A stretch of DNA of 59,675 bases from a virus. Shown piece after piece: positions 18,713 through 56,021 of this stretch. The notes under the pieces were generated by a model, which worked only from the letters and a program-made list of their open reading frames with translations, was not told the origin of the DNA and made no database searches. A program made the translations under genes and the position numbers. The stretch lies in IMG/VR virus record IMGVR_UViG_3300022752_005293, positions 1 through 59,675 of that record; one strand, given 5' to 3'. Numbering within the stretch: position 1 is the first letter of the stretch; every line of letters begins with the position of its first letter.

Positions 18713-19161
18713 AAGATAACTTAGTATTCCATTACAAACTACTAAAATTAATTAATGGCGAAAGTATAGTATGTTCTACCGATGATAACTGCGAAAATCT
18801 TAGAAGCAAATCTAGTATCCACGTTTGTGATCCTGTTTTAGTTATTCCTTTTAGAGTTCCTCGAGGTATGAATATTGCGGAAACATATATTATGACACCT
18901 TGGATTTCTATAAGTGAAGAAATAATATTTGAAATCCCAACAGAACAAATTATTGTAGCTGTGGATTTGAAACACAATTTTAAAGAAAATTATATAAGTT
19001 ATGTTGAAGCACAAAATAAAACTGAAGATTTAGTACAACAAGATAAAGAAGTAATGCTAAAACATCTTCTTAATAGTTTGGGGAACAATAGTGATGAAGA
19101 AATCGAAGATAGTAGCGGGGACAAACCAATCCTTGTCCCAGGATCAAGATCAGTCCATTGA
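18709..19161 (+). CDS. Hypothetical protein between uvsW and gene 55
   Basis: I do not recognise a named function in this 150-residue protein. It opens LVFHYKLLKLINGESIVCS, has beta-rich segments (VCDPVLVIPFRVPRG, YIMTPWISISEEIIFEIP) and an acidic tail. The KL-x-x-GE-x-IV start, a proline-led strand and the M-x-PW motif suggest a small beta-barrel (LSm-like) fold. They resemble, weakly, the 92-residue protein at 57446. It overlaps uvsW by 4 bases and gp55 by 68 bases, a long overlap that ties its evolution to the sigma factor gene. Confidence 0.7.
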   Translation: MKDNLVFHYKLLKLINGESIVCSTDDNCENLRSKSSIHVCDPVLVIPFRVPRGMNIAETYIMTPWISISEEIIFEIPTEQIIVAVDLKHNFKENYISYVEAQNKTEDLVQQDKEVMLKHLLNSLGNNSDEEIEDSSGDKPILVPGSRSVH

Positions 19162-19708
19162 AATACCTCGTTCATCTCATTATGTAGATAACAAGAAATT
19201 TCTACAGGCATTAATAGATTATAAAGTTTTAGTAGATCGGGCCCTTGTAGAAGGGAACCCGCAACCACAGGTTCCAAACTATATAGGTGAATGTTTTATA
19301 AAGATTGCTACGCATTTATCTTATAAGTCTAATTTCATAAATTATACGTTTAAAGATGACATGATAAGTGATGGAATAGAAAATTGTTTAACTGCTGTTG
19401 CTAAATTTGATCCATCTAGATCATCTAATCCTTTTGCATACTATACTCAAATAATTTATTTTGCTTTTATTCGCAGAATTCAAAAAGAAAAAAAGCAACA
19501 GGCCACCAAATATAGAATGATAGAAAATATTGATATTGATCAGATAATATCCCAAGAGCATGGTAATGAAGAATTTAATAATCAATTTATGGAATATGTA
19601 AAAAAACAACTTGATCAAATCGATATAGAAAAACGGGTAATTCAATTCCCGAAAAAGAACAAATTAGCTGAAGAAAATTTGAATAATGCTCTTGATTTAG
19701 ATGAATAG
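19094..19708 (+). CDS. gp55: Late-transcription sigma factor gp55
   Basis: This protein (204 residues from ATG 19094; GTG at 19091 also possible) matches T4 gp55 in IECFIKIATHLSYKSNFINYTF-like core, MISDGIENCLTAVAKFDP and NPFAYYTQIIYFAFIRRIQKEKKQQ. These correspond to sigma region 2, which binds RNA polymerase and reads the TATAAATA late promoters seen in this window. The N-terminal 25 residues are polar and overlap the previous gene. Position after uvsW is common in marine T4-like phages. Confidence 0.92.
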   Translation: MKKSKIVAGTNQSLSQDQDQSIEIPRSSHYVDNKKFLQALIDYKVLVDRALVEGNPQPQVPNYIGECFIKIATHLSYKSNFINYTFKDDMISDGIENCLTAVAKFDPSRSSNPFAYYTQIIYFAFIRRIQKEKKQQATKYRMIENIDIDQIISQEHGNEEFNNQFMEYVKKQLDQIDIEKRVIQFPKKNKLAEENLNNALDLDE

Positions 19709-19746: not shown

Positions 19747-20592
19747 ATGTCTAAATTAAAAGTAAGTGAATTATTTTATAGTATTCAAGGTGAGGGGCGT
19801 TATATGGGCGTTCCTAGTATATTTTTAAGAACGTTTGGTTGTAATTTCACTTGTGATGGTTTTGGTATGCTTAAGGGGGAAAAATCAAATGAACGAAATA
19901 TCATTGCCATAAATGCGAATCATTACAAAGATTATAAATCTTTGCCGCTTGTTACTACAGGTTGCGATAGTTATGCTAGTTGGGATGTTCGGTTTAAGCA
20001 TCTTAGCCCTCTGCTTACTATTGATCGCATTGTTGACGCCATTCTACGTATGCTACCTCGTGGTAGGTGGGCAAGTGAGCATCTTGTTATCACAGGGGGT
20101 GAACCGCTTCTTGGCTGGCAAAAATCATACCCTACGCTTTTATCGCACTCGGGCATGGTCGATCTACAAGAACTTACGTTCGAGACCAACGGAACACAAG
20201 AACTAATACCTGAATTTTCTGAGTACTTAAAGATACACTGGCGCAAAGGTTGGGATCGTCTTACTTTTAGTATTAGTCCCAAGCTAAGTGTTAGCGGCGA
20301 AAAATGGGATGATGCTATTAAACCAGAAATTATTCTTCAGTATGAAGAACATGGTTATGCCTATTTAAAATTCGTTGTAGCCAATGAAATCGATGTTGCT
20401 GAAGCAGAAATGGCAGTTGAGTGCTACAGAGATCATGGATTTAAGGGTCCAGTATATTTAATGCCTGTCGGTGGGGTAGAATCGGTATATGCTATGAACA
20501 ATAAGAATGTAGCATTGATGGCAATGAAAAAAGGATGGCGTTATTCTGATAGGCTTCAGGTGCCATTGTTTAAAAATGAATGGGGAACATAA
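19747..20592 (+). CDS. queE: QueE, 7-carboxy-7-deazaguanine synthase (radical SAM)
   Basis: This 281-residue radical-SAM enzyme converts 6-carboxytetrahydropterin to 7-carboxy-7-deazaguanine. The N-terminus KVSELFYSIQGEGRYMGVPS is the QueE signature, and TGGEP sits at 116-120. The cluster cysteines are Cys32, Cys36 and Cys73: the third is displaced by a 36-residue insertion, so the canonical CxxxCxxC spacing is absent. FETNGTQ and SPKLSVSG complete the family pattern. It begins a block with folE, queD and a DpdA-like enzyme. Confidence 0.9.
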   Translation: MSKLKVSELFYSIQGEGRYMGVPSIFLRTFGCNFTCDGFGMLKGEKSNERNIIAINANHYKDYKSLPLVTTGCDSYASWDVRFKHLSPLLTIDRIVDAILRMLPRGRWASEHLVITGGEPLLGWQKSYPTLLSHSGMVDLQELTFETNGTQELIPEFSEYLKIHWRKGWDRLTFSISPKLSVSGEKWDDAIKPEIILQYEEHGYAYLKFVVANEIDVAEAEMAVECYRDHGFKGPVYLMPVGGVESVYAMNNKNVALMAMKKGWRYSDRLQVPLFKNEWGT

Positions 20593-20792
20593 TGAAAATT
20601 ATAGATAGAGACGATTTTAAAATGTATGTTCTTATAGGTGAATGCAAGGCACCCAACGAATTAAAAATTATTCATTTTATAAGAGAAGAACTTGACAAAG
20701 ATGAAAATATTATAATTAGAAATACATATGAATTTTTTATGAAAAAAAATGAGATAAAAAAATTAGCGAAAGTATTGAATGACTACAAATAA
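20592..20792 (+). CDS. Small hypothetical protein (66 residues)
   Basis: The ORF starts at ATG 20592, overlapping the queE stop (TAATG). An upstream in-frame ATG at 20580 would add four residues inside queE. The product is charged and helical (DRDDFKMYVLIGECKAPNE, then KKNEIKKLAKVLNDYK) with no recognised motif. It overlaps folE by 14 bases, so it is translated within the queE-folE operon. Confidence 0.6.
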   Translation: MKIIDRDDFKMYVLIGECKAPNELKIIHFIREELDKDENIIIRNTYEFFMKKNEIKKLAKVLNDYK

Positions 20793-21528
20793 ATTAGTTG
20801 AAGAAGCGCCTTATCATCCTGGTTACGAATGTGCAGTATTTAGTGATCCCGTGGGTCGTCCCATGAGTCTAGTGATTCGAGAAAGATTAAAGGAAAGCAA
20901 TTCTAGATTTTTTGCCAATGACAATATCTCCGAATTTATTGAAAACGAAGATGAAATAGATGCGCTTGTTGAAGAAGTAGCAGAAAAATTTCAAGGTGTT
21001 CTTCACTCATTGGTGATTGACACTCACAATGATCACAACACGCAGGATACTGCACGTCGTGTGGCTAAGATGTTTGTGAAAGAAACTTTCAAAGGTCGTT
21101 ATGCTAGTCCACCCAAGGTAACTGCATTTCCGAATGTAACTGAATACGATGAGTTGTATGTTACTGGCCCAATTACAATTAGGAGTACCTGTGCCCATCA
21201 TTTTCAAAACATTGTTGGTAAAGCCTATATTGGCGTATTTCCGGGGAAGAATGTTATCGGTCTTAGTAAATTTAATCGTATCACGGATTGGATCGCCTCT
21301 CGTCCGCAGATTCAGGAAGAAATGACTGTTCAGATTGCTGATGCTATTGAAAGTGAAACGCAGGCCGATGGTGTTGCTGTATTAGTGCAAGCTGAACATC
21401 ATTGCATGACTCACAGAGGAGTTAAAGAACATGAGTCGGACATGACTACCTCTGTCATGAGAGGGGCATTTAGAAATGATCCTCATCTTAAACAAGAATT
21501 TTTCAGTATTATTCATAAAATGAAATGA
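20779..21528 (+). CDS. folE: GTP cyclohydrolase I, FolE
   Basis: This 249-residue protein makes 7,8-dihydroneopterin triphosphate from GTP, the first step towards deazaguanines. Zinc-site residues are visible in STCAHH (Cys138, His141) and HHCMTHRGV (Cys209). GKVYIGVFPG-like and GLSKFNRI strands and a QADGVAVLVQAEH segment match the family. The N-terminal about 50 residues are extra relative to the minimal enzyme. It lies between queE and a membrane protein gene. Confidence 0.93.
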   Translation: MTTNKLVEEAPYHPGYECAVFSDPVGRPMSLVIRERLKESNSRFFANDNISEFIENEDEIDALVEEVAEKFQGVLHSLVIDTHNDHNTQDTARRVAKMFVKETFKGRYASPPKVTAFPNVTEYDELYVTGPITIRSTCAHHFQNIVGKAYIGVFPGKNVIGLSKFNRITDWIASRPQIQEEMTVQIADAIESETQADGVAVLVQAEHHCMTHRGVKEHESDMTTSVMRGAFRNDPHLKQEFFSIIHKMK

Positions 21529-21876: not shown

Positions 21877-23247
21877 ATGAAAATCTTTAGTAAAAGAATA
21901 GCATTTTGTATTAGTGATCAACATACTATTCCTCATGGAGGCCTCGGGCAATTTGCAAAAAGCTTTGTTGAGACTTTCACTCCAATGGGATTTAAGATAG
22001 ATATTATTTGTGATAAATCTCCTTCTAATTTGGATTTTAAAAGAAGCCTTATTGAATCTGGTGCTTCGTTTATTTACCCATCAGAGCCTATTACTTATAG
22101 TAAACATAGTAAAATCTTTATGTTTGAGGATTCTTACAATTTTGAAAAGATGATTAATTTTAGAGATGCTATGATGCAGGCTCTAAATACTAATTTATAC
22201 GACACTATCATTTGTAATACTTTAGAATCATTTCCTGCAGTGCATTCTTTAAGTTTGCAGAAATCAATACAAGTTATTTACTATACTCATAATGAAAGTA
22301 TGGTTTTCCTAGATGATAGAACTTGGAGAAATGAATTTTCTCATTCATTTAATAATTTTTTCAATGTTCTTCTTTCTTGCAGTAATATTCAAGTAGGCAC
22401 TCAAACAGAAAGAAATAAAATGGAGTTATTAAACAATAGAATACCTGCTTATCTATTACCCATTCCTATGACAGAAAAATCTTTATTGAATAAGCATATC
22501 AAATCTCGTGAAGGTGTTCTATGGATCGGTAGATGGGAACCTAGAAAAAATCCTGAAGAATTTATAAGAGTGATACAAGAAACGAAACTACCAGCAAAGG
22601 TAATTACCAACACCAATGGTGCCAAAAAATTTGAACAAGCATTAACAGAGATTTGCGCAGATTTTCAAATTAAAATAGGCGTCTACGGTAAGGAAAAAGT
22701 TGACTTTCTCACATCTGCCAGAGTAGCATATAATCCTGCAATTAGAGAATCTTTTGGTTTGGCATTTTATGAAACTGCTGGCCATATGCCAACCGTCGTT
22801 CTAGAAAATATGAGTTGGATAAAGAATTTTCCGTCTGAATACTATTATTCCACCACTAAAAAAGATGCATCAGAAAAAATCAAAACTTTATATGAAATAA
22901 TGGTGGATGGAACATATCATTATGAAAAACATATACTTGATAAAATAATTCAAAATAATCAAGAAGGCATACAAAGATGGGTGGATATGTTTGATAATTT
23001 TATACCTTCTAAATCTGATAGTGATAGGGCAAGAATAAATCAAGAGCGAACCGTTTGTTACAAAGATTTTATAAAAGGCTTAAACAGAAAAGATTTATCT
23101 ATAGATGATATCAAATCTGTATTGACAAACAAGCATAAGTATAATACAATTTATACTAATGACAATACTTATCTCTCTAAAGACAAAAACTTTATACCAA
23201 ACGAAAAGACAAACGAGTCTGCAAGTCTCGAGGATTTATTTGCATGA
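21877..23247 (+). CDS. GT-B glycosyltransferase with clamp-binding-like C-terminus
   Basis: This 456-residue GT-B (family 4-like) protein has a Gly-rich opening HTIPHGGLGQFAKSF, a middle VLWIGRWEPRKNPEEFI that starts the donor domain, and VAYNPAIRESFGLAFYETAGH with the E-x7-E donor-binding motif. The last residues are NESASLEDLFA, resembling the C-terminal sliding-clamp peptides of T4-like phages. The next gene, a DpdA-like transglycosylase overlapping by 4 bases, ends SLEELFA. I infer a DNA-acting glycosyltransferase; a surface-glycan role is the alternative. Confidence 0.8.
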   Translation: MKIFSKRIAFCISDQHTIPHGGLGQFAKSFVETFTPMGFKIDIICDKSPSNLDFKRSLIESGASFIYPSEPITYSKHSKIFMFEDSYNFEKMINFRDAMMQALNTNLYDTIICNTLESFPAVHSLSLQKSIQVIYYTHNESMVFLDDRTWRNEFSHSFNNFFNVLLSCSNIQVGTQTERNKMELLNNRIPAYLLPIPMTEKSLLNKHIKSREGVLWIGRWEPRKNPEEFIRVIQETKLPAKVITNTNGAKKFEQALTEICADFQIKIGVYGKEKVDFLTSARVAYNPAIRESFGLAFYETAGHMPTVVLENMSWIKNFPSEYYYSTTKKDASEKIKTLYEIMVDGTYHYEKHILDKIIQNNQEGIQRWVDMFDNFIPSKSDSDRARINQERTVCYKDFIKGLNRKDLSIDDIKSVLTNKHKYNTIYTNDNTYLSKDKNFIPNEKTNESASLEDLFA

Positions 23248-24530
23248 GTAAAATATTTGAGTATTCTATTTCCGGGCCTGCGTACTTACGCTTAGGAGCT
23301 GAACAATGTAATGATCCAGAAACATTGGAAATGATAAAAAGTATGATTTTGAAGACATGTCATAATCAAAATAATCATACACTTTCTTTACTATATAATG
23401 GATTTACGGAAAAGAATTTTGGTGAAAAATTACAAAAGTATAGACCCGCCATTAAACAGATTCATGCTGACTCCGGCGGATTGCAAATTATTACTAGGGG
23501 ATTAAAAAATACTCCAGAGCTGAGAGAAAAGGTTTATACTAACCAGGGCACATATGCGGATATTGGTATGGCTTTCGATGAGATTCCGGTTAAAGCAACT
23601 CAAGACGGCAGATCATCTAAGATTGATACGAAGCGTAGATATTTTGATAGAGAAAATTTTGAAGATTATGCTACACAAACTGGCAAAAATGTTAGAGCAC
23701 AAATAGAGAAATTTGCTGAACTAAAATCTAACTGTAGACCTTTTGTGATTATGCATGGAGCATCTCACGATACATATCAGCATTGGGCAGAAACAATTCT
23801 TCGAGAAGTTTCAGAACCATTGCATGATAAGATTGGTGGTGTAGCCATGGGATCAGCGGCCCTAGGCATGGGTCAGTTAGAAGATGTAAAGAGAGCATTT
23901 TATGTTACCCTTATGCCTTTCAGTAGACCTTTTCATCTACATGTATTAGGTGTCGGCGCATTACGACGTATGTTGCCTTATCTTTTATTTAGCCAAACAG
24001 GATTGTATGATGGAATTGATATCTCATATGATTCTACCACACATTCTATGTCACTTGATAATGGTTTATTCTATTTTTCTCACTATAAGAAGTCGCCAGG
24101 ATCTGCATATGGAGGTACATCAGTTAAGATGGGGAGAGAATACTCCAACATCTATAGAACAGTTACAGAAGAAATCAATTTAGTATGCGGGACAGAGTAT
24201 GCCCCTGAAGAATATCATAAATTAATGAACAAACAAGTTACTGCTTATATAGAAGAAGGTGGCAAATTCATTGATATTATGCGAGCAAGACTTGCCTTTA
24301 TTCTTACCAATATTCACAATTTTACTAAAGATGTTTCAGAACTTACGCAATCAAAAGAACAATTTTTAAAATTTGCAAGAGAAAAAGATTGCGAAAATGA
24401 ATACGCTACATTATTTGATGTTAAAAATTTAGATGATTTTTTACACTGGGAAAAACACGTAGGTTGTCATATGGATTCAGAATCTGTTGCAGATAAACCA
24501 CCTTCATCACTAGAGGAATTATTCGCATGA
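23244..24530 (+). CDS. dpdA: DpdA-like DNA base transglycosylase (TGT superfamily)
   Basis: This 428-residue protein is in the tRNA-guanine transglycosylase superfamily. DSGGLQ (Asp76) corresponds to the DSGGFQ catalytic motif, HVLGVGA (233-239) to the GVGTP loop, and GIDISYDSTTH (257-267) to the nucleophile Asp region. The CxCxxC-H zinc site of bacterial TGT is not visible. Phage members of this type (DpdA) exchange guanine for a 7-deazaguanine in DNA. With folE, queD and queE nearby, DNA rather than tRNA is the likely target. The C-terminus is SLEELFA. Confidence 0.8.
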   Translation: MSKIFEYSISGPAYLRLGAEQCNDPETLEMIKSMILKTCHNQNNHTLSLLYNGFTEKNFGEKLQKYRPAIKQIHADSGGLQIITRGLKNTPELREKVYTNQGTYADIGMAFDEIPVKATQDGRSSKIDTKRRYFDRENFEDYATQTGKNVRAQIEKFAELKSNCRPFVIMHGASHDTYQHWAETILREVSEPLHDKIGGVAMGSAALGMGQLEDVKRAFYVTLMPFSRPFHLHVLGVGALRRMLPYLLFSQTGLYDGIDISYDSTTHSMSLDNGLFYFSHYKKSPGSAYGGTSVKMGREYSNIYRTVTEEINLVCGTEYAPEEYHKLMNKQVTAYIEEGGKFIDIMRARLAFILTNIHNFTKDVSELTQSKEQFLKFAREKDCENEYATLFDVKNLDDFLHWEKHVGCHMDSESVADKPPSSLEELFA

Positions 24531-24907
24531 TAGTTAAACAAGACGTTCGTCCACGCACTGAAACATTTATAAAAGTGCGAACAGAATTTGAGGGGTATCA
24601 TAGATATCCTATTGCAAGTCAAATTGATTCCCGTATTGCCTTTCTTGAAAATGAACATAGGCATATGTTTAAGGTTGAGGTCAAGATTTCTGTATCTCAC
24701 CTTGATAGAGAATTGGAATTCTTTTTAGTTAAATGGGCATTGCAAGATTTTATCAAAGGCGGCGATATGAATCACAAGTCTTGTGAAATGATTGCCATGG
24801 ATTTATTAAATGGTTTTTTAAGACCTTCATTTGGTGAAAGATATTACGAGATTGTAGTATCAGAAGATGGTGAGTCTGATGGCATTGTTGAATACTTTCC
24901 GGGATAA
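24527..24907 (+). CDS. T-fold (QueD/PTPS-like) small protein
   Basis: This 126-residue protein has the layout of 6-pyruvoyl-tetrahydropterin synthase-type T-folds: FEGYHRYP (His25), ENEHRHMFKVEV (His44, His46) and KSCEMIAMDLL (Glu87). These match F-x-AAHR, HGH-x-x-x-V-x-V and the C-terminal Glu motif. The catalytic Cys normally four residues before HGH is not present (a Glu is in that region). It overlaps the DpdA-like gene by ATGA. It may be a deazapurine-binding partner rather than an active QueD; the similarity is my reading and needs a structure-level check. Confidence 0.6.
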   Translation: MIVKQDVRPRTETFIKVRTEFEGYHRYPIASQIDSRIAFLENEHRHMFKVEVKISVSHLDRELEFFLVKWALQDFIKGGDMNHKSCEMIAMDLLNGFLRPSFGERYYEIVVSEDGESDGIVEYFPG

Positions 24908-24909
24908 TT

Positions 24910-26079
24910 ATGCGTAAATTGTGGTATTGCGGATTAGAGCCGTATGAGGGCAGATACACTTTACAGCTTCAGCGATGGAGCGAGGCGGTATTTAAGCGAC
25001 GGGGTATTAATTACGAAGTAATTCATGGTGAATTATTAGATACATCTAAGTCTATCGTAACAGGTCAAGTATTAGATGCACATGGTCGCAGTTATTATTC
25101 TTTGACACAAATGGCTAAACTTGTAGCGAAGATGAAAGCGGGTGAAGTAACTTGGGAAGACGGAATCTTTTTTGAGGATATGTTTACTCCTGGCATGGAA
25201 GCATTGCCCTACATAATGGATCAAACAACTACAGAGTTTAGGCCTCAAATTTGGGTTAGATGTTTAGCGCAGACAATTGATCCTGATGACTTTCTGCACG
25301 TATGGGATATGCAAGACTGGATGCGCAATTATGAACATATGATAAATCATTTTGTAACAGGTGTATTAGCATCAAATGAGGAAATGGTTGCTCATATGAA
25401 AATTGCAGGCTGGAATGTTCCGATCTATAATATTTCTGGTCTAGCTTTTGGTAAAGAGGAAGTGCAATCCCGAGTGCCTGTTAGAAAAGATTTTTATGAT
25501 AGGAAAAGGCGTGTTTGCTTTGCTGCAAGATTCGATCAGGAAAAACAACCTGGGTTTTTCATGGATTTAGTCGAGAGAGTAACAGATTATACTAATACTG
25601 AATTCTGTGTATTATCCGGTGGACCATTACGTAGTAATGATGATGGGTATTTAGAACGTGCTAGAAATTTAGAAGCTCAAGGTAAATTAAAAATTTATGA
25701 GAATCTAAAGAAGAATGAGTATTATGAAATTCTAGCAGATAGCAGAGTTTTATTTAATTGTGCACTGCAGGATTGGGTATCAAATACAGCTTCGGAAGCA
25801 GATGCACTGGGAACGAATTGTTTATATCCTGCCTATAGAAGTTTTCCAGAATCTTTTGCTAATGATTCAGAATGTTTATATATTCCTTGGTCAATGGAAG
25901 ATGCTGAGGCAAAGTTGGTTCATTTACTTAATAATCCAAGAACAAAACTTGGTAAACTGTCAGATTGGACTAATGGCACTATTGATCGTTGTATAGATAT
26001 TATGAATAATCGGACAAACGAACAATGGTATAGAGGCAATAATAGGTATCGCAATCATGTCCCAGAATCTAAATTCTAA
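24910..26079 (+). CDS. GT-B glycosyltransferase (family 4-like)
   Basis: This 389-residue GT-B protein has RRVCFAARFDQEKQPGFFMDL (start of the donor domain), FCVLSGGPLRS, an ILADSRVLFNCALQDWVSNT segment and a following A-x-ALG-x-NCLYP. The N-terminal domain (LWYCGLEPYEGRYTLQLQRW) is unlike common surface-polysaccharide transferases. It is locked into the modification operon: 2 bases after the T-fold gene and overlapping the epimerase by 23 bases. Substrate unknown; transfer of a sugar to a modified base is possible. Confidence 0.72.
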   Translation: MRKLWYCGLEPYEGRYTLQLQRWSEAVFKRRGINYEVIHGELLDTSKSIVTGQVLDAHGRSYYSLTQMAKLVAKMKAGEVTWEDGIFFEDMFTPGMEALPYIMDQTTTEFRPQIWVRCLAQTIDPDDFLHVWDMQDWMRNYEHMINHFVTGVLASNEEMVAHMKIAGWNVPIYNISGLAFGKEEVQSRVPVRKDFYDRKRRVCFAARFDQEKQPGFFMDLVERVTDYTNTEFCVLSGGPLRSNDDGYLERARNLEAQGKLKIYENLKKNEYYEILADSRVLFNCALQDWVSNTASEADALGTNCLYPAYRSFPESFANDSECLYIPWSMEDAEAKLVHLLNNPRTKLGKLSDWTNGTIDRCIDIMNNRTNEQWYRGNNRYRNHVPESKF

Positions 26080-27108: not shown

Positions 27109-27615
27109 ATGGCTTTTATAAATTTACCGCATCCCTACAAATACGTTAGTACAAAAGAATACCATGATGCTTTCCCATGCGCTTATAGACAATGGAGAGC
27201 AGATAGTCACTGTAATATGATTCATGGTTATAGTTTTAGTATGAAGTTTTATTTCGGGACAGATAACTTAGATGTTCGTAACTGGGCAGCTGATTATGGT
27301 GGTCTCAAAGAACTAAAGAAAATTCTTGAGAATCAATTTGATCACACTTTATTAGTTGCTGAAGATGACCCTGAATTAGAAACATTTAGATTATTACAAG
27401 AAAAGAAAATGGCCAAGCTAACTATTCTACCTCGTTTAGGATGTGAAGGTTTGGCTGATATGCTTTATAAGTATGTCAATGGTGTTTATATACCGGATAT
27501 GTGGGGCCCAGGTGAAGCAGAAAGACTATGGTGTTTTAGAGTTGAAGTCAGAGAAACACAATCTAATATGGCTTACAGAGAAGGCCATAGACACTGGAAC
27601 GAGGTATTATTATAA
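27109..27615 (+). CDS. queD: QueD-like 6-carboxytetrahydropterin synthase
   Basis: This 168-residue protein matches the phage QueD type: FPCAYRQWRADSHCNMIHGY, DYGGLKELK, FDHTLLVAEDDPE and GCEGLADML. The catalytic Cys (Cys35), His79 and Glu113 motifs are present. The zinc His residues are only partly conserved: the A-H-R of ordinary QueD reads CAYRQ and HGH reads HGY (His39, Tyr41). It should convert dihydroneopterin triphosphate to 6-carboxytetrahydropterin for QueE. A 59-bp gap with a Shine-Dalgarno (AGAGGCAAGAG) precedes it. Confidence 0.85.
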   Translation: MAFINLPHPYKYVSTKEYHDAFPCAYRQWRADSHCNMIHGYSFSMKFYFGTDNLDVRNWAADYGGLKELKKILENQFDHTLLVAEDDPELETFRLLQEKKMAKLTILPRLGCEGLADMLYKYVNGVYIPDMWGPGEAERLWCFRVEVRETQSNMAYREGHRHWNEVLL

Positions 27616-52893: not shown

Positions 52894-52903
52894 GGTTATT
52901 ATG
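52894..52903 (+). promoter_or_regulatory. Candidate RegA operator at gp45 start
   Basis: GAGGTTATTATG spans the Shine-Dalgarno and start codon of gene 45 (ATG 52901). The same GGTTATTATG occurs at the gene 44 start (54325-54334). It parallels the GAGGAAATTATG-type site bound by RegA at T4 gene 44/45 starts. RegA is encoded just downstream. Inference from pattern only. Confidence 0.5.
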
Positions 52904-53557
52904 CAAATAAGTAAAGAAACAATTGAAGTTTTGAAAAATTTTGCAAGTATTAATAGTAATATTCTTATTCGCAAGGGAAAAAATCTTGCTACTATTAGTA
53001 CGGCAAAAAATATTTTTGCCAAAGCCAATGTAGCTGAAGATTTTCCTATAGAAGTTCCAATATATGATTTAAATTCCTTATTGGCATTATTAACTTTAAT
53101 GGAAAATCAAAATGTAGAATTTGGGGATAAATCTTTAACTATTTCCAAAGATGGCGGAAAATTTGAATATTTTTATTCTAATGCAGGTGTAATAGTAGCA
53201 GCACCAGATAAATCAATTGAATTAGATAATCATTTTCAGTTTAAATTAACGGCTGAGGATGTTCAAATGATTATAAAGGCTGCAGCAATCACATCCGCTC
53301 CCACAATTTCAGTAACTTGTAAGCATCAACAAGTAGTACTTACTATTGGTGACAAGAAAAATGATACTGCTAATACTTATAAGAAAACTATTGGACCTGG
53401 GCTAGAAGATTTTGAATGTCATATGGCAGTGGAAAATTTTAAGATTATACCTGATGCTTATACTGTAACTATTTCTAAAAAGAAATTTATGCATTTTAAG
53501 CATGAAACAAAATCCGTTGAATATTTCATTGCAATGGAACCAGATTCGGTGGTGTAA
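52901..53557 (+). CDS. gp45: Sliding clamp gp45
   Basis: This 218-residue DNA polymerase processivity clamp has MQISKETIEVLKNFASINSN at the start, FPIEVPIYDLNSLLALLTL, FKLTAEDVQMIIKAAAITSA and a C-terminal EYFIAMEPDSVV, all gp45-like. In T4 it also activates late transcription with gp55/gp33 and binds C-terminal peptides of polymerase and other enzymes. Two modification-block proteins here carry such peptides. Confidence 0.93.
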   Translation: MQISKETIEVLKNFASINSNILIRKGKNLATISTAKNIFAKANVAEDFPIEVPIYDLNSLLALLTLMENQNVEFGDKSLTISKDGGKFEYFYSNAGVIVAAPDKSIELDNHFQFKLTAEDVQMIIKAAAITSAPTISVTCKHQQVVLTIGDKKNDTANTYKKTIGPGLEDFECHMAVENFKIIPDAYTVTISKKKFMHFKHETKSVEYFIAMEPDSVV

Positions 53558-54324: not shown

Positions 54325-54334
54325 GGTTATTATG
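54325..54334 (+). promoter_or_regulatory. Candidate RegA operator at gp44 start
   Basis: GGTTATTATG covers the region from the Shine-Dalgarno (GGGG) to the gp44 ATG at 54332. It is identical to the site at gp45. The shared sequence ends at the start codon, as expected for translational repression. Confidence 0.5.
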
Positions 54335-55273
54335 GAAGTTCGTGAAGATCAATTTTTGTGGGTTGAAAGATATCGTCCTCGTAAATTAACTGATTGTATT
54401 TTGCCCGCTGATCAGAAAAAAATTTTTGAGGAAATGATAAGTAAAGGTGAGATTCAAAATATGTTATTGTGTGGTTCAGCTGGTGTAGGCAAAACCACTG
54501 TAGCTAGGGCATTATGTGAGGAATTAGAAACAGATTATATAGTAATTAATGGTTCAGAAGAATCTGGAATTGATATTCTTAGAACTAAGATCAAACAGTT
54601 TGCATCCACAGTATCATTCAGTGGCAAAACAAAAGTTGTAATTTTAGATGAAGCAGATTATCTAAATCCCAATTCTACTCAACCTGCATTAAGAGCCTTT
54701 ATAGAGGAGTTCTCGGCTAATTGCAGATTTATTTTTACTTGTAACTTTAAAAATAGAATTATTCCTCCTCTTCATTCTAGATGTACTGTTATTGAATTTA
54801 AACTAGCAAAAGATGATAAGCCAAAGCTAGCTGCCAAGTTCTTTAAAAGAGTAAACGAAATTCTAAAACTAGAACAGATTGAATTTGATTCTAAAGTTGT
54901 AGCAAAAGTTATCGAGAAGCATTTTCCAGATTATCGTCGTATTTTAAATGAAATACAGCGTTATTCAGTATCTGGAAAAATTGATGAGGGCATTTTAGTT
55001 AATATGAGTGAAGCCAATATGGCTGATCTTTTTGCTTCTCTTAAAGACAAAGACTGGAAAAGAATGCGAAATTGGGTTGTAAATAATCTTGATAATGATC
55101 CTACAACAGTTATAAGAAAAGTATACGATAATTTAACAGATCAAGTTGTTCAAGTGCCTCAATTAATACTAATATTGGCAGATTATCAATATAAAAGTGC
55201 TTTTTGTGCTGATCAAGAAATAAATTTAGTAGCATGTCTTACTGAAATAATGGCATCTGTAGAATTTAAATGA
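54332..55273 (+). CDS. gp44: Clamp loader large subunit gp44
   Basis: This 313-residue AAA+ ATPase has Walker A GSAGVGKTT at 48-56, Walker B VVILDEAD at 102-109 and the SRC motif (LHSRC) at 147-151. WVERYRPRKLTDCILP is the typical loader N-terminus. Four copies with one gp62 load the gp45 clamp. It is preceded by a putative RegA site and followed by a small gene before gp62. Confidence 0.95.
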   Translation: MEVREDQFLWVERYRPRKLTDCILPADQKKIFEEMISKGEIQNMLLCGSAGVGKTTVARALCEELETDYIVINGSEESGIDILRTKIKQFASTVSFSGKTKVVILDEADYLNPNSTQPALRAFIEEFSANCRFIFTCNFKNRIIPPLHSRCTVIEFKLAKDDKPKLAAKFFKRVNEILKLEQIEFDSKVVAKVIEKHFPDYRRILNEIQRYSVSGKIDEGILVNMSEANMADLFASLKDKDWKRMRNWVVNNLDNDPTTVIRKVYDNLTDQVVQVPQLILILADYQYKSAFCADQEINLVACLTEIMASVEFK

Positions 55274-55539
55274 AGCTTCGTGTTGCAGGAATAAATTATA
55301 GTATAGAATATGTATCCTCAGAAGATTTAAATGGATTACTTGGTATAGCAGATTTTAATAATCAAAAAATTAAAATTAATAACAATGCTACAGAATCAAC
55401 ACAACATATAGCAATTATTCATGAAATAATTCATATTTTAGATAGATCGTATAATATCAAATTGACTGAGGATCAAGTTATTTATCTTGCACAAGCTATT
55501 GTAGCTTTGGTAAACGAAAATCCGGAGTTTAAAATATGA
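55270..55539 (+). CDS. Small HExxH protein (ImmA/IrrE-like) between gp44 and gp62
   Basis: This 89-residue protein contains IAIIHEIIHILDRSYN, an HExxH zinc-peptidase motif. DFNNQKIKINNN before it resembles minimal ImmA/IrrE metallopeptidases of the kind found in phages. A C-terminal helix (VIYLAQAIVALVNENPEF) matches the 'E-x-x-A-x-x-L' helix of that family. It overlaps gp44 and gp62 by 4 bases each. Function in the phage is unknown. Confidence 0.7.
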   Translation: MKLRVAGINYSIEYVSSEDLNGLLGIADFNNQKIKINNNATESTQHIAIIHEIIHILDRSYNIKLTEDQVIYLAQAIVALVNENPEFKI

Positions 55540-56021
55540 TAAAGCCTACAAGAAATAACACATATTCTATACAAGAAAATAAATTATTTGGAGATCCGGT
55601 AGTTAAATATGTGGAAGAAAAATATGATACACCCAAAATTTCACCTTTTGATTTTATAAATGCTATTCATCACACTAAAGAAAATTTAATAGTTGATGAT
55701 TGGTCTGAGAAACAATACAATTCTTTTATTGTAAACAGAGGATTATCGTACGGACAAGATACGATTATACCTGCAAATGAAATGAATTCTAGACCACACT
55801 TGGATAAATTACTTCAATTTTCATTTTTAATAAATATTATTGGATCTAAAAAAAGATTCAATAAATGGTTAAAAGCTGATAAAATTGAAGCGATAGATAT
55901 TGTTCGAGAATACTATGGATATAGCAAAGAAAAAGCTCGTCAAGTACTTCCGCTTCTTAGTGATGAACAAATTGAAACAATAAAAACAAGAATGTATAAA
56001 GGTGGCAGAAATGGCGGATGA
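55536..56021 (+). CDS. gp62: Clamp loader small subunit gp62
   Basis: This 161-residue protein shows SPFDFINAIHHTKENLIVDD, YNSFIVNRGLSYGQDTI and AIDIVREYYGYSKEKARQVL followed by a DEQIETIKTRMYKGG end. This is the pattern of marine T4-like gp62. It forms the 4:1 loader with gp44. The end overlaps regA by 11 bases. Confidence 0.9.
   Translation: MIKPTRNNTYSIQENKLFGDPVVKYVEEKYDTPKISPFDFINAIHHTKENLIVDDWSEKQYNSFIVNRGLSYGQDTIIPANEMNSRPHLDKLLQFSFLINIIGSKKRFNKWLKADKIEAIDIVREYYGYSKEKARQVLPLLSDEQIETIKTRMYKGGRNGG

Follow-up and report, generated by a model that had tools for sequence, protein, structure and literature searches.

Polymerase-like C-terminal tails on a DpdA2 homologue and its neighbouring glycosyltransferase are probable clamp-binding motifs in a T4-like phage

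The sliding clamp of phage T4, gp45, is a trimer with one hydrophobic patch per protomer, which binds motifs of the DNA polymerase, the ligase, gp33 and gp55 (PMC7892883). A base-modifying enzyme of T4 also contacts this clamp. The α-glucosyltransferase co-purifies with gp45, while the β-glucosyltransferase does not; the first report of the interaction dates from 2004, and a pull-down confirmed it in 2026 (PMC13216743). The original prediction for the DNA described here also mentioned this interaction. A different modification, dPreQ0, is present in the DNA of Vibrio phage nt-1, whose DpdA2 was the first to be described, and the gene set described for it is FolE-QueD-QueE-QueC-DpdA (Hutinet et al. 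2019, PMC6884629). The present analysis concerns a stretch of viral DNA of 59,675 nucleotides (IMG/VR record IMGVR_UViG_3300022752_005293, positions 1 to 59,675; hereafter the window). Two adjacent genes between positions 21,877 and 24,530 encode a glycosyltransferase (GT) and a DpdA2 homologue, which end in the almost identical peptides SLEDLFA and SLEELFA. Both tails are very probably gp45-binding motifs that would tether the two enzymes to the clamp and so couple DNA modification to replication. This is the simplest reading because S/T-L-D/E-x-L-F, a motif shared with phage DNA polymerases and carried on a linker, ends two enzymes of a DNA-modification cluster.

The two tails have the same C-terminal S-L-D/E-x-L-F on a linker as the motifs with which T4 gp43, gp55, gp33 and ligase bind gp45, exemplified by SLDFLFG in gp43 and SLDFLYEAND in gp55. 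Unlike those T4 clients of the clamp, the tailed proteins of the window are predicted base-modification enzymes. The nt-1 DpdA2 belongs to the same family over most of its length, has the tRNA-guanine transglycosylase (TGT) fold and is likewise accompanied by FolE, QueD and QueE in its cluster. The T4 α-glucosyltransferase and the window GT share the GT-B fold and a proposed attachment to gp45; the cluster of the window serves 7-deazaguanine and not hydroxymethylcytosine. The features at the centre of the analysis are as follows.

21877..23247, + strand: GT4-type retaining glycosyltransferase of 456 aa with GT-B fold (weak Pfam matches, AlphaFold2 model, PDB neighbours, E-x7-E)
23224..23244, + strand: GT tail SLEDLFA, putative gp45-binding motif (codons AGT CTC GAG GAT TTA TTT GCA)
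23230..23234, + strand: GAGGA in the GT tail codons, Shine-Dalgarno (SD) sequence for the DpdA gene, 9 nt 5' of the ATG at 23244
23244..24530, + strand: DpdA2-family DNA-guanine transglycosylase homologue, TGT fold, 428 aa (phrog_10773, E 5.5e-95)
24507..24527, + strand: DpdA2 tail SLEELFA, putative gp45-binding motif (codons TCA CTA GAG GAA TTA TTC GCA)
24513..24517, + strand: GAGGA in the DpdA tail codons, SD sequence for the gene at 24527, 9 nt 5' of its ATG

Translation of the GT gene runs out in ...NESASLEDLFA and that of the DpdA2 gene in ...DKPPSSLEELFA, with SSLEELFA as the last residues. The synonymous codon differences between the tails, pointed out in the original prediction, are borne out by the translations and the codon comparison. 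A duplication of the 3' end was considered as the source of the twin tails and ruled out, since the codons differ and the linkers before the tails are unrelated. A scan of the 76 called open reading frames (ORFs) of the window found the tail on no other ORF, and shuffling of their last 40 residues gave 0.004 expected tails, compared with the two observed.

A search motif, [ST]L[DE]x[LFM][FY]x0-4$, was set solely from the T4 gp43 and gp55 peptides, and both SLEDLFA and SLEELFA fit it. It was scanned against ten T4-like phages: the window, the large relatives G001 (222 kb), G003 (203 kb) and G006 (112 kb), BUCT-ZZ01, X1, ACP17, pf16, KVP40 and T4 (in part, ~99 kb). Of 2390 ORFs, 22 matched where 0.18 were expected, and all but one of the matches (21/22) are a DNA polymerase, T4 gp55, a DpdA2 or a GT of the window family. 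In G001, G003 and BUCT-ZZ01, only three proteins per genome carry the tail, namely the polymerase, DpdA and GT. The polymerases were identified by annotation in BUCT-ZZ01, ACP17, pf16 and T4, and by a search with the G003 sequence in the other records.

In the nearest relatives, the polymerase ends in TLEGLF, and in G006 it ends in AKPIATLEGLFA. Within one phage, the polymerase and DpdA tails are alike: SLESLFG and SLEELFG in X1, SLDDLFE and TLDELFE in ACP17, SLEDLFGW and SLDDLFG in Ps15, and TLDDFFS and SLDSFFD in BUCT-ZZ01. The pairs are nearly all of the L-F/L-F type, with F-F/F-F only in BUCT-ZZ01, and give little power for detecting covariation. The pattern mostly holds in 17 further records with both polymerase and DpdA, with G013, G016, G009, G010 and G012 as exceptions. 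This shared tail on the polymerases of relatives supports the proposal that the tails are clamp-binding peptides. Position by position, the T4 gp43 and gp55 peptides match the two tails better than SLFDMF, the form quoted in the original prediction.

Structure models were built for both enzymes from alignments of the window protein with viral sequences. The DpdA2 protein is homologous to a KVP40 protein (E 4e-48), and nt-1 was recovered with the ACP17 member (E 8e-38). Its model has a mean pLDDT of 85.5, and the top Foldseek matches are tRNA-guanine transglycosylase (E 2e-8), which points to the TGT fold. DSGGLQ (D76) and D263 are invariant in 33 DpdA sequences, and these residues are presumably the two catalytic aspartates of TGT. 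The enzyme probably replaces guanine in DNA with a modified base. Its tail is modelled as a detached terminal mini-helix (423-427) of moderate confidence, the last block having a pLDDT of 73. The L, E, L and F positions are conserved in 85-97% of the aligned sequences, and much of the linker is variable.

The GT is less easily placed. Pfam Glycos_transf_1 gives weak matches in 30 of 33 family members, and PF11440, the family of the T4 α-glucosyltransferase (AGT), gives none in any of the 33, which match generic GT families only. Pfam and PDB sequence searches with the GT likewise returned no specific family. The AlphaFold2 model (mean pLDDT 87.6) has GT4 enzymes as its nearest PDB structures, namely BshA, MshA, TarM and tetrahydrobiopterin glucosyltransferase (Z 25-28, maximum 27.8), and also PimA. 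The T4 AGT family is not among the listed neighbours, which is not evidence of its absence. The E-x7-E pair, E291 and E299, is invariant in the alignment. Some 10 residues of variable linker precede the tail, whose L/E/L/F positions are conserved in 94-97% of the 33 aligned members, compared with mostly 12-40% for the linker columns. Over residues 441-456 the mean pLDDT is about 60 and then about 48, and the tail is modelled as a short low-confidence helix after the linker. In the models, the GT tail thus projects from the folded body on a flexible linker; for DpdA the same arrangement is predicted, with weaker support. It is plausible that the GT is a DNA glycosyltransferase, and its substrate is the least certain step of the whole proposal.

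The GT bodies of the window and of L004, L007, L009 and L070 share only about 52% identity, although the DpdA proteins of these phages share about 90-93%. The last 50-60 GT residues before the linker are nearly identical among the same five. This may be a sign that recombination has exchanged the GT bodies while a separate constraint acts on the C-terminal part.

The tails could have a more trivial cause. GAGGA might be kept as the SD sequence of the overlapping downstream gene, and the similar peptides would then be incidental to ribosome binding. The original prediction had raised this caveat, and the window agrees with it as far as it goes: both genes overlap the next one by ATGA, and GAGGA lies 9 nt before the overlapping ATG in both tails. 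The named test was that homologues lacking a downstream overlap should lose the tail. It was carried out on viral contigs, at 78 loci that encode DpdA relatives and 9 that encode GT relatives, and both C-termini were read in all of them. The GT tail is conserved in 50 of 51 distinct homologues. The sole tail-less GT, L088, has unrelated neighbours, without a DpdA in the stretch retrieved, and its whole C-terminal part is absent. The ATGA overlap is present in 46 GT genes. In 39 of these the tail codons contain no SD core (they typically read TTAGAAAGTTTATTC), yet every one of the 39 keeps the peptide. Four GT genes have no ATGA overlap, including that of BUCT-ZZ01, whose genes overlap differently, and all four have the tail. 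In L004, L007 and L008 a gene on the opposite strand stands between GT and DpdA (in L004, the only one tested, it matches DUF7487), and the GT still ends in SLEDLF[SA].

Of 54 distinct close homologues of DpdA, 52 have the tail. Among the eight that do not overlap the next gene, six (L083, L085, L086, BUCT-ZZ01, X1 and Ps15) retain it with no SD sequence inside it, and a separate SD sequence lies further down where inspected. The polymerases also carry the same tail beside other neighbour genes. The tail persisted in both families, and SD pairing as its sole cause is refuted by the non-overlapping homologues, which leaves the artefact barely credible. The peptide is a conserved element in its own right because it survives without the SD sequence and without the overlap. 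As judged from these sequences, it is shown to be kept by selection on the protein and not as a by-product of a ribosome-binding site. The artefact does contain a kernel of truth. In the window clade, 43 of 45 overlapping DpdA homologues use GAG for the tail Glu, compared with 23% GAG elsewhere in the gene, and none of the three non-overlapping ones does. Codon usage of this kind indicates that an SD sequence is selected in addition, layered onto the peptide, in overlapping DpdA genes.

Other binding partners have to be weighed against gp45. Bacterial clamp-binding motifs are of the QL[SD]LF type and likewise end in a hydrophobic pair, so the tails might bind the host β clamp (DnaN). A wider search led by the BUCT-ZZ01 and ACP17 DpdA alignments yielded 89 distinct DpdA2 proteins, of which some share only 32-53% identity with the BUCT-ZZ01 query and 71 have the strict tail motif. 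The tails of a few distant members, such as L261 (4700-4748; QSLELEF) and L321 (PAELEF), are closer in look to the bacterial motifs; the L261 record also has an unusual polymerase tail (KVLLDFG) and a GT ending in ISFDDIF. The leading Gln is absent from the window tails, however, and the phage has its own clamp and loader and relatives whose polymerases bear the same tail, which makes DnaN an improbable target. Mutual docking of the two enzymes, or their docking to a shared third partner other than the clamp, would suit two adjacent genes with almost identical tails, the more so as the GT nearly always stands beside a DpdA. A GT of the window kind nevertheless lies within the fetched flanks of only 27 of the 89 DpdA2 genes, so that the DpdA tail is independent of the GT, and the polymerase has the tail as well; mutual docking is very improbable. 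A further alternative accepts gp45 as the partner and lets the GT act on a target other than DNA, such as a free base, or RNA or protein near the fork. Some of the GT4 enzymes nearest to it in the PDB act on small molecules, tetrahydrobiopterin glucosyltransferase among them, and no Pfam DNA glucosyltransferase family was matched. A clamp tether would, on the other hand, be of no obvious use to an enzyme of free metabolites, and the known clamp-bound GT, the T4 α-glucosyltransferase, is a DNA modifier (PMC13216743). This alternative is fairly unlikely.

Binding of both tails to gp45 would work as follows. Each tail would dock in the hydrophobic pocket of one gp45 protomer, and the enzymes would thereby be held on clamp-carrying DNA, that is, newly replicated phage DNA. 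The clamp-tethered DpdA2 would exchange guanine for a 7-deazaguanine base on the newly copied strand, and the GT, also tethered, would then decorate a base on the nascent DNA. Because gp45 is trimeric, a single ring could in principle hold the polymerase, DpdA2 and GT together. In a more specific version, DpdA2 and GT fill two of the three pockets behind the polymerase, the nascent 7-deazaguanine is glycosylated on the same clamp, and tethering selects phage over host DNA; this two-step line is tentative and somewhat doubtful.

Several observations weigh against clamp tethering or limit its weight. The IMG/VR homologues are related by descent, and their counts are not independent trials. G013 and G016 have a canonical polymerase tail, but their DpdA proteins end in SLPEDF or DTLELF. 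The nt-1-type DpdA2 of KVP40 has no clamp tail, unlike that of the window, and the tail of the pf16 DpdA2 is degenerate (VTLDLMCA), while the polymerases of both phages carry the motif. The window itself is a fragment that does not include gp43, and the polymerase comparison is drawn from relatives. T4 AGT ends in FKEQFDIITK, with no such tail, and its family (PF11440) differs from that of the window GT; it is a precedent by function and not by motif, because it binds gp45 without this kind of tail. In T4, moreover, the level of modification is set mainly by expression rather than by clamp contact (PMC13216743). Since that contact is not the main determinant there, binding to gp45 may improve how efficiently or when modification takes place here without being essential.

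The proposed partner, its loader and the genes of the 7-deazaguanine pathway are encoded in the same stretch.

52901..53557, + strand: gp45-type trimeric sliding clamp, proposed partner of the tails (phrog_223, E 2.7e-66; Pfam gp45-slide_C above cut-off)
54332..55273, + strand: gp44-type clamp loader subunit (phrog_168, E 1.6e-122)
55536..56021, + strand: gp62-type clamp loader subunit (Phage_clamp_A; phrog_225, E 5.6e-40)
19747..20592, + strand: QueE-like radical SAM enzyme, 7-deazaguanine synthesis (phrog_2076, E 9e-51)
20779..21528, + strand: GTP cyclohydrolase I, FolE (PF01227, E 6e-51)
27109..27615, + strand: QueD-like 6-pyruvoyl-tetrahydropterin synthase (PTPS) (PF01242, E 7e-15; phrog_2389, E 1e-35)

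The window gp45 matches the gp45 of RB69 (1b77/1b8h, 1e-22) and of T4 (1czd, 6drt; 2e-20) over its full length in phmmer, and all eight relatives tested encode gp45. A PF09116 search missed the clamp in several short contigs, a result that says nothing about its presence there. RegA, UvsY, UvsW and a late sigma factor are also encoded in the window. QueC was not found in the window, in the relatives G001-G003 (190-222 kb), in BUCT-ZZ01 or in ACP17, where the records may be incomplete and host QueC is possible; KVP40, in contrast, encodes it. By the established pathway, the cluster would end at 7-carboxy-7-deazaguanine if QueC were not supplied by the host.

The clamp-binding motif and the enzyme families are known, and their combination is new. 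A literature search of incomplete coverage found no report of a clamp-binding tail on DpdA, only passing mentions of DpdA together with a sliding clamp, and the word clamp is absent from Hutinet et al. (PMC6884629). The tail would offer a direct answer to how TGT-like enzymes find phage DNA and at what stage of infection they act, namely base exchange after replication by an enzyme tethered to the fork. If true, base modification would join replication and late transcription among the functions of gp45 clients. The tail might also serve as a sequence mark for picking DNA-acting modification enzymes among phage glycosyltransferases without a known target. Another DpdA subfamily possibly acquired a clamp tail independently. 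The DpdA of Enterobacteria phage 9g (L427:3007-3960), a DNA transglycosylase, ends in RLQDLFDE, and its gene lies directly beside the clamp and DNA polymerase genes; this phage differs in the DpdA subfamily and in its larger clamp (330 aa). In three more distant relatives of the 9g DpdA, RLQDLFDE was not kept or was unreadable, which gave no clear result.

Some neighbouring genes deserve mention. Directly 3' of DpdA, 24527-24907 encodes a small protein of 126 aa (phrog_17812), in which HRHMFKVEV and DRELEF recall QueD/PTPS enzymes, despite the separate QueD at 27109-27615. Look-alikes follow DpdA directly or one gene further on in BUCT-ZZ01, X1, ACP17 and L261. The gene at 24910-26079 encodes a second GT-B-type protein near DpdA, with an N-terminal GLEPYEGRYT motif and no clamp tail; its look-alikes adjoin or stand near DpdA in ACP17 (gp124), X1 and L261. 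The gp55-type late sigma factor at 19091-19708 lacks the C-terminal clamp motif of T4 gp55, as does the gp55 of BUCT-ZZ01. Directly after QueD, the gene at 27618-28199 matches a phage family annotated as 'ferrochelatase' (phrog_2954).
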